DNA of 64,000 bases from assembly GCF_965638725.1 (NCBI RefSeq), contig NC_134953.1, forward strand, positions 9,385,001-9,449,000, written 5' to 3'. Below are positions 8,706 to 23,557 of this stretch, piece after piece (positions within the stretch are counted from its first letter, which is position 1; every line of letters begins with the position of its first letter). The position numbers were made by a program, and so were the translations under genes. Origin of the DNA: Aptenodytes patagonicus. Taxonomy: Eukaryota > Chordata > Aves > Sphenisciformes > Spheniscidae. Below the pieces are notes generated by a model. It saw nothing but the letters and a program-made list of their open reading frames with translations, did no database searches and was not told the origin of the DNA.

Positions 8706-11700
8706 TCATTTTAGCTTGGTCACCTTCTTGATCCAGGGTACGTATTTGCTGACCTTTGTGTACACACCAGGGAAATCCTTCCGACCACAGCCGTAACCCC
8801 AGGAAGTGATCCCCAAAATGATCCAGCGCCCGTTTGACCTCTGACACATGAGTGGCCCTCCACTGTCACCTTGGCAGCTGTCCACCCGTTTATCTTCAGA
8901 GAGGTTCCCAGCGCAAATCATGCGGTTAGTGAACTTCTGCCCGTAACGGACCTCACAGTCTTCCCGTGGGAGAAGAGGCACCACCCCTTGCAGCAGGGTT
9001 CTCGAATAGGACTTCCCTGGAACAGAACAGACCAGCCAGACCAATTCACGTACAGACAACAGCAGCGACCTAGAGCAACAGTGCTCCACACAAAAACGGA
9101 TGTTTGTACGTTTAATGTCAAGACTGCGGCACAGAAATAGGCCAAGCTCAGCATCTCTGAACCACCAGAGCTTCAGAAAACAGTACTGCAAAGCCAGACC
9201 ACAAAAAAGAGCTATAAGATCAAAGAGGTGGGGAAGAGGTTGGAAAAAGAGGTTAGATCAAAGGATGAGTCTTTCTCCTGGTTCTGCCAACAAGTAACTT
9301 GAACCTTGTTCAATTTATTTCACCTCTCTGAGCCTCCATTTCCTCCTCTGTAAAACAAGGACTGTGTTTTCTCAAGAGAATAAATGCAGTAATATTTGTG
9401 AAGTGCTCAATCCGCAGAGAAGTTTTGGAAGATGTTTCAGAGGCATCCAAACATTATTCAAAGGGAGTGCACTTCATCTTTGGCCAGATGTGTCTCTATT
9501 TGCTCAAATCTCTTTATTACCCCAGACTTGCTCAGAACACAAGGTTCCCGTGCTATATTAGAGTGTGAGCTTTCTGTGCCCAAGGTTTACGGTAAGTTCA
9601 CAAGGTAGTAGGTAACTGCACCTCTCATTGGGAAAGCCGGGTTCAGTGCGTGGGAGGGATTCTAGCCATTAATTCCCAGTACAGCTTAAGGGAATTACAT
9701 GGCCAAGTTGCTCCTTGATCCTCCCCAGACACCTCGAAGTGACATGTGCACCTGGCGCAACTCACTCCAAAGACAAATGTATATTTGCAGTTAAACACTT
9801 GGGGTAACAGCTGGGAAGGATGGGTAAGTCCAAAATCAACAGACAAGCTCCTGGGGCTATTTGCCTTTTGGCAGCAAGTCTTTCTGCACATATGGCTTTG
9901 CTCCAGTCACAGCAGCCCCAGAAAGGCCTCCTTGCCCCAAGCCCTGCATTGCGTCTCTGAGCCCCAAACGGGGGAGGACTGGAGAGCGGGTTATAAAGCT
10001 TTGTTTAGAGTTCAAAGCCGTCTCCAGACCTTGCTAATGCATGCACGTCAGGACTCCACCGAGCCCAGCATTTTAAAACATCACCTTGAGAGTGTTAAGT
10101 ATTCAATAATTAATACTTTCTAGAATATTCCCTACTCCCTTTTACCTAGGAAGCTCCATAGCAATGTGCTGCAAGAGGACAGGCACAGCCTGTCTCGAAC
10201 CTAGTGCAGAAACCAGCCTCAGAGCCCAACTGTCCCTGCAGCAATATCCAGGGAGATCAGGCAAGGTAGTCAGAGAGAGATTCCTTCCAGCTCTAAGCCC
10301 CCACTTCACTACTACAGTATCATGAAGAAGGCAGGAGGTCATGGAAACATGGGGGCCTCCCATAGGCTTTGTACACCAGCTCTGCACAGGCTGCTGCCTA
10401 AGGGGTCTGCCGTGGGCAAACACGTGTGTGGAAGGGTGAAGAAAGAGAGGACTGTGGCCAGATGGCAGCACTGCTCTCTCCCACAGCTTCAGAAGGATGC
10501 TGTGGCAACCAAAACTTCCACCATGGGCAGGCTCAAGAAGCCTCAAAATCAGAAGAAAACACAATGGCACAAAAATCACCTCACTTCTCTGCTCCTTGAC
10601 ATGTGCTGGCACAGACAAGCAGTAAGAACATGGCCTTGAGTTGTGCAGGCATAAATTAATGGCCCATGTAGGCTCCTGAATCCAGTCTCCCCCACCCTTC
10701 TTGCTCCTCAAAGCCCCACTACTCACCTGTGTCTCCCCAGCCAGAGATGATGCAAGCTTGCCTGTTGATGTCAGACTTCTCTTTCCTGTCAGGCAGGCAG
10801 ACAGGCAGAACGTGGTGATTGAAGGAGAGACAGTGCCCCTCTCTGCCCCGCATCCGGACCAGGGCAATGTCATTATCATTGCTGCCGGCCCAGTAGTTCC
10901 TGTGGAGGACGATCAACTCCACGGGCAGCTCCCTCTCAAACTCATCCTTCACGCCTGTGTGGTAATCACCCACCCGCAGCAGGTAGCGCCGCACATCAAC
11001 ACCAAACCTGGAGAAAAAGGCACTCGGTCTTGATACTCCTACTAAGAGAGAAACAGACTCGCACAAGTCTCAGTCGCTATGAGACTGAACCACCTCCTCA
11101 CAAACTGATAAAACAGTGCCAGCTACAGGGCTGTGGGACTTCTTTAGCAGATGTGACAATGCCAGCTGTTGGGGTCAATGGGTGTCCCATGCACAAGGCT
11201 TCCTTTTTTTTTTTCCCTATAAAAAGGGCTACAACAGTTGCAATGGTTGCAAGGCATGTGACCTCGTGTTCACAGTTCCTTAAAGCACTGAAGAATGGCA
11301 AAATGCTGGTTCCCTTTAAGTTGTGAAGCCTCCAAGTTAAGAGGGCAGGTGTAAGCAGTGAAGGATAAAGCAAGCCTATATTGAGTCATCCCCAAAAGTG
11401 CTCCAAGATCACACACATCATAACCTGAAGGTCTTGTTTTAGAAACTTTGTTCATGTGGTTCCACTGGGCTGGGTGGATAGCCTGTATGGGGTTATCTTG
11501 TTCATCTTTGAGTATCCCTCAGAGCTCCCCACTCACAAACGCACCTTTTGAAGCAGTGGGCTGCAGTCACTACCCAGCAGCTGCTGATCAGTGTTGCTCC
11601 GCACAGCAGACGAGTATCTTGATGAAAACCCTTCAACCGTAGTGAGGCCTGCCATGGCCAACCGCCCCTGAAGAAGAAACAGAGGAGTAATAGGCATCAC

Positions 11701-23557: not shown

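Follow-up and report, generated by a model that had tools for sequence, protein, structure and literature searches.

Human PRSS12, the neurotrypsin gene, is located at 4q26, and the 4q26 and 10q22 regions are paralogous blocks. Mammals have one neurotrypsin gene, and a truncating PRSS12 mutation is believed to cause intellectual disability in humans. PMC9616769 reports that agrin cleavage by PRSS12 takes place after VER and VEK, depends on calcium and is modulated by heparin. The protein sez-6 has been named as a partner of the PRSS12 kringle. The duplication of neurotrypsin and the loss of one copy in mammals is already known in print since 2010, when a paper, in its accessible part, stated both in one sentence with the remark "data not shown". 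The chicken copy was named NTL (neurotrypsin-like) in a 2022 paper, which assigns the original neurotrypsin of zebra finch (LOC100229828) to chromosome 6 and reports its annotation as NTL in GRCg7w (PMC9516828). Among the matches listed in the literature searched, a partly accessible body of text that leaves out most subscription papers, we found no statement on SEC24/NDST linkage of the neurotrypsin pair or on its origin in the early whole-genome duplications (2R).

Here we analysed a 64,000-nucleotide stretch of the 1.35-Gb genome of Aptenodytes patagonicus (C5:9385001-9449000, the window) that carries a neurotrypsin gene. We conclude that this gene is very probably the SEC24C-linked duplicate of PRSS12, called NTL in chicken, which arose when a SEC24-neurotrypsin-NDST block was duplicated in early vertebrates, most likely with the whole genome, and which was lost in mammals. 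Chicken NTL and zebra finch LOC100229828 are read as the same gene as the window copy, an orthology that rests on the accessible part of PMC9516828, and we found no difference from them. The window gene shares four SRCR domains, the trypsin domain, the RxKR activation site and the exon structure with PRSS12. It also shares an intact kringle with the 10 non-bird PRSS12 rows aligned, whereas bird PRSS12 lacks an intact one. It differs from PRSS12 in its position on the opposite side of a tree split, in seven near-fixed positions of the protease domain (for instance, window residue 649 is Arg in place of Glu) and in having no long proline-rich stretch ahead of the kringle.

Structure and surroundings of the window gene

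NTL runs on the minus strand from position 23557 down to 8706 of the window (C5:9393706-9408557(-)) and has 15 coding exons, with GT-AG at 14/14 introns. The coding sequence of 2463 nt encodes 820 residues, and its sole stop codon is the terminal one; the reading frame is intact. Exon 6 has two in-frame acceptors 6 bases apart, and the one yielding GAPLRL was used. In the following list, exon 2 was placed by the exon model and exons 4 to 11 by the exon model together with Pfam.

23486..23557, minus strand: exon 1, start codon and probable signal peptide (by eye)
21322..21367, minus strand: exon 2
20045..20281, minus strand: exon 3, kringle with six cysteines (Pfam, 41.8 bits)
18610..18733, minus strand: exon 4, first half of SRCR1
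17714..17889, minus strand: exon 5, second half of SRCR1
17054..17195, minus strand: exon 6, first half of SRCR2
16030..16208, minus strand: exon 7, second half of SRCR2
15478..15619, minus strand: exon 8, first half of SRCR3
14199..14401, minus strand: exon 9, second half of SRCR3
13036..13177, minus strand: exon 10, first half of SRCR4
12553..12758, minus strand: exon 11, second half of SRCR4 and linker
11917..11995, minus strand: exon 12, zymogen activation site, RKKR before IIGG
11545..11667, minus strand: exon 13, protease with active-site His
10727..11007, minus strand: exon 14, protease with active-site Asp
8706..9016, minus strand: exon 15, protease with active-site Ser, stop codon

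Pfam recognized a kringle (residues 51-117, 41.8 bits), SRCR domains in four stretches (370.1 bits) and a trypsin domain (residues 575-813, 205.7 bits), in the kringle, SRCR, trypsin order of the neurotrypsin family. The motifs of the catalytic His, Asp and Ser and of the S1-pocket Asp are located at 618, 670, 762 and 767, and a furin-type activation site, RKKR, directly precedes IIGG. The exon model, Pfam and these motifs confirm the preliminary description of a complete 15-exon gene with a kringle, four SRCR domains and a trypsin domain with an intact active site. The fourth SRCR domain matches the solved structure 6h8m, which is titled neurotrypsin. Upstream of the NTL start, the window contains a low-complexity run of the CCCCTCC type at 24050-24240 (by eye).

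Three further genes lie on the same strand:

30262..31178, minus strand: CHCHD1-like gene, translated parts of two exons (CHCH domain, 32.5 bits for the joined exons)
45000..47862, minus strand: FUT11-like glycosyltransferase 10 gene, two open pieces with approximate ends (PF17039, 47.7 bits; PF00852, 101.9 bits)
51438..63424, minus strand: SEC24C-like gene, placed exon translations (SEC24 trunk and zinc finger); the 5' part continues, perhaps past the window

The domain matches agree, at the level of families, with the same-strand SEC24C-FUT11-CHCHD1 array proposed upstream of the gene; the paralog names CHCHD1, FUT11 and SEC24C are our assumption from gene order. The segment at 40504-41080 is presumably a CR1 retroposon remnant, and tblastn with the open reading frames of the window found related pieces in the C4 region described below as well.

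Two neurotrypsin loci in one genome

With the protease domain as query, 104 matches were obtained in the same genome. Outside the window gene, the strongest set with the exon pattern of the query was located on C4 at 80592828-80603839, with 80, 51 and 68% identity by exon. It belongs to a plus-strand PRSS12 gene that extends from a start codon at 80559754 to a stop at 80603842, and whose exons were obtained by local tblastn and splicing, beginning with the SRCR part and ending with the stop. In the ten exons spliced by script, AG precedes 10/10 and GT follows 8/9 donors, exon 4 as cut ending one base short of GT; exons 5 and 6 were placed by reading, without script splicing. The joined protein was 95% identical to a duck neurotrypsin row over 697 columns. 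Exon lengths are equal in 7/10 exons spliced in both NTL and the C4 gene, and the two protease domains share 170/268 residues.

The two genes are embedded in mirrored blocks (for SEC24 and NDST, the extent of the matches is given):

C5:9439852-9448424, minus strand: SEC24C
C5:9393706-9408557, minus strand: NTL
C5:9269095-9279805, plus strand: NDST
C4:80494448-80511936, plus strand: SEC24D-like gene
C4:80559754-80603842, plus strand: PRSS12
C4:80647918-80681209, minus strand: NDST

The order and orientation of SEC24, neurotrypsin and NDST on C4 are identical to those on C5 read from the opposite end. The labels SEC24C, SEC24D, NDST2 and NDST3 are names that we assume from PMC4359090 and linkage. 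When the joined SEC24C exons of the window were compared with the genome, 21 matches were obtained: 10 on C5 within the window, 10 on C4 near PRSS12 and a weak one at another place on C4. Of the 20 matches to the NDST family model, 19 fell into four clusters (two on C4, one each on C5 and C12) and one was a lone weak match. The nearest NDST match is 114 kb from NTL, in a region where the DNA read consisted of the window and short loci. The C4 neurotrypsin lies 48 kb downstream of the SEC24D-like gene and faces an NDST gene, and in the accessible part of a synteny study NDST3 faces PRSS12 in the vertebrates compared, from human to zebrafish (PMC4359090). The second PRSS12 that the preliminary description had proposed to look for next to SEC24D is present on C4 beside the SEC24D-like gene, and the placement of both copies in paralogous blocks holds for the SEC24 and NDST pairs, the linkage evidence of this one genome.

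These results bear on two other explanations. Identical domain architecture would be expected if the window gene were PRSS12 itself, relocated to C5, but a separate PRSS12 with 95% identity to the duck protein is present on C4, and the protease domains of the two copies agree at just the 170 of 268 residues given above. A moved PRSS12 ortholog is ruled out by this separate gene and by the placement of the window gene in the tree (see below), and we give the idea next to no weight. A false duplication in the assembly has a precedent reported in PMC9516828, an artefactual neurotrypsin scaffold of ~3 kb from an earlier zebra finch assembly. Here, the copies are widely different, they lie on two large contigs, each in a gene neighbourhood of its own, and relatives of the window copy occur in many vertebrates. 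This divergence, the separate contigs and the vertebrate-wide relatives rule out an artefact, whose probability we consider negligible.

Phylogeny of neurotrypsins and apparent absence of NTL from mammals

The tree set comprised 42 rows, i.e., 40 hand-picked database rows (of 299 proteins), mostly without isoforms, partial records and DMBT1-type rows, and the two genes of this genome; this tree replaced an earlier one with 39 NTL-side rows. The unrooted maximum likelihood tree, drawn midpoint-rooted, had a single split (100/100) into 21 and 21 rows, each set including cartilaginous fish, ray-finned fish, coelacanth, amphibians and sauropsids. The mammal rows (4/4) fell on the PRSS12 side together with the C4 copy, and the window gene fell on the other side, separate from the mammalian PRSS12 orthologs as had been suggested. 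The unrooted split, with cartilaginous and bony vertebrates in both sets, likewise agrees with two clades that predate bony vertebrates. Since birds, reptiles, amphibians and sharks are found on both sides, chick and frog results may relate to one gene or the other.

Reconciliation with a hand-written species tree, in which birds were one leaf, gave the NTL/PRSS12 split as the cheapest root tried, with 25 duplications and losses (next best, 28) and the duplication at the gnathostome root; as all birds form a single leaf, false duplications are added under any root. In a protease-only tree with the distant TMPRSS9 as outgroup, which had a very long branch, the root fell among three long-branched ray-finned rows and made the NTL side paraphyletic, whereas constraining the NTL side to be monophyletic was not rejected by the AU test (p-AU 0.117). 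The Amia TMPRSS9 row was left out of this outgroup, its first motif lying at the extreme start and giving an empty piece. The ray-finned NTL-side rows P0109, P0117 and P0118 (Erpetoichthys, Arapaima and Huso) have long branches and may represent fast-evolving NTL or another, third duplicate. Lamprey, hagfish or amphioxus neurotrypsins did not appear among the database matches in three lists of the best 120 each.

Among the best 120 of 6123 matches to the whole window protein, the closest row was that of Mesitornis unicolor (96%), and many bird relatives are named neurotrypsin-like. Identities of the neurotrypsin or neurotrypsin-like rows among these 120 were 85% for gavial, 85-86% for turtles, 68-79% for squamates, 71% for tuatara, 63-72% for caecilians and frogs, 68% for axolotl, 60-71% for sharks, rays and chimaera (top values from partial length) and 60-62% for ray-finned fish.

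Mammals were searched among database proteins of at least 0.55 of the query length. No mammalian neurotrypsin-like row was present among the best 120 of 6842 matches to the protease region or among the best 120 of 6123 to the whole protein. The mammal rows for the protease region were 38-40% identical and nearly all named transmembrane protease serine 9, the exceptions in naming being one hypothetical and one peptidase S1 protein (best 120 of 6842); as PRSS12 and ray-finned NTL score below the end of this list, a mammalian NTL equally divergent would escape it. For the whole protein, where the best 120 of 6123 reach the ray-finned rows, the mammal row found was a platypus SRCR protein, 46% identical over half of the query. 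NTL is apparently absent from mammals, as had been claimed, judging from the protein-database matches listed and from the 4/4 mammal rows on the PRSS12 side of the tree.

A later or smaller segmental duplication that carried SEC24 and NDST along, instead of 2R, would be compatible with a split that tree and reconciliation date just to before the gnathostome crown, and the case for 2R draws on the 4q26 and 10q22 blocks. However, two flanking families were duplicated with order and orientation kept, and an extra NDST locus is present on C12, as expected from a genome-wide event, so that we regard a segmental origin as improbable. We infer that the block duplication was part of 2R. An early-vertebrate duplication of the SEC24-neurotrypsin-NDST block, most likely in one of the two whole-genome duplications, would have left PRSS12 beside SEC24D and NTL beside SEC24C, and mammals would later have lost the SEC24C-linked copy. 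The C4 copy beside the SEC24D-like gene and the tree split support the earlier proposal that the window gene is the missing PRSS12 ohnolog, kept here and lost in mammals.

Protease and kringle of the two paralogs

RxKR precedes the protease in 19/20 NTL-side rows (RRRR in the remaining one) and in 21/21 PRSS12-side rows. Exact-motif misses on the NTL and PRSS12 sides were 0/20 vs 1/21 for His, 2/20 vs 2/21 for Asp, 0 vs 0 for Ser and 0/20 vs 2/21 for the S1 string. Seven diagnostic positions of the protease separate the two sides with at most one exception per side (17 and 21 rows); Ambystoma NTL, with its truncated protease, was left out of this comparison, and the three ray-finned NTL-side rows were excluded from it and included in the motif counts.

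Judged from its sequence, NTL is likely a working trypsin-like protease: the catalytic residues are retained, and the protein has targeting domains, a site for furin-type activation and, probably, a signal peptide. It would be secreted as a zymogen and cut after RKKR by a furin-type protease, and the activated enzyme would cleave after Arg or Lys, while the kringle and SRCR domains may dock it onto partners. By analogy with PRSS12, an agrin-cutting enzyme, we infer that NTL probably trims extracellular proteoglycans; its substrate may differ from that of PRSS12, since seven protease positions differ between the sides.

The kringle distinguishes the two genes in birds. Pfam recognized no kringle in any of the 11 bird PRSS12 rows listed, nine of which include the first exon, and 17/20 bird NTL rows among the best 120 of 6123 have one, the other three being two partial records and one isoform. 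In a scan with the kringle model that admitted matches to E 10 (its filters remove most above 0.1), 0/6 bird PRSS12 rows matched, compared with 45.6 bits for turtle, 38.7 for macaque and 53.4 for gar. A koala PRSS12 row, P0150, was likewise without a kringle match, which reflects a gene-model fault or a true loss. When 21 sequences were aligned, 7/7 bird PRSS12 proteins, including ostrich and kiwi, lacked kringle cysteines two and five, and one parrot row also lacked the first; all six were present in the 14/14 others (10 non-bird PRSS12 and four NTL, including the window protein). In the standard disulfide pattern of kringles, loss of cysteines two and five breaks two of three bridges. The string C-R/K-N/S-P-D/E occurred in 0/9 bird PRSS12 rows with exon 1, of which Anas, Sturnus and Strigops are outside the alignment. 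In the sole crocodilian PRSS12 row, the first exon is unrelated.

Since the kringle of true bird PRSS12 is eroded, the window gene seems to be the kringle-bearing neurotrypsin of birds. A kringle-containing architecture has been stated to be conserved in birds (2011, PMC3927609, accessible part), which counts against an eroded kringle unless NTL was what that paper examined; its bird sequence may be the NTL paralog and not PRSS12. We tentatively consider, as possible but somewhat short of probable, that the bird duplicates divided the ancestral protein: the kringle of PRSS12 would have disappeared in the bird ancestor or earlier, leaving the kringle tasks to NTL, mammals would have kept these tasks in PRSS12 and lost NTL, and the bird papers with the full architecture would describe the paralog. 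If so, part of the published bird neurotrypsin record may describe the other gene, and should a functional kringle truly be missing from avian PRSS12 and present in NTL, the two genes offer a natural experiment on the role of this domain.

In the genome studied here, the eroded first exon of PRSS12 is in frame: its start codon lies at C4:80559754 and its GT donor follows about 80560095. Its G+C content is 86.1%, compared with 59.9% for the kringle exon of the window. It could be objected that the losses are sequence errors in an exon so rich in G+C, but they recur in the records of several bird groups.
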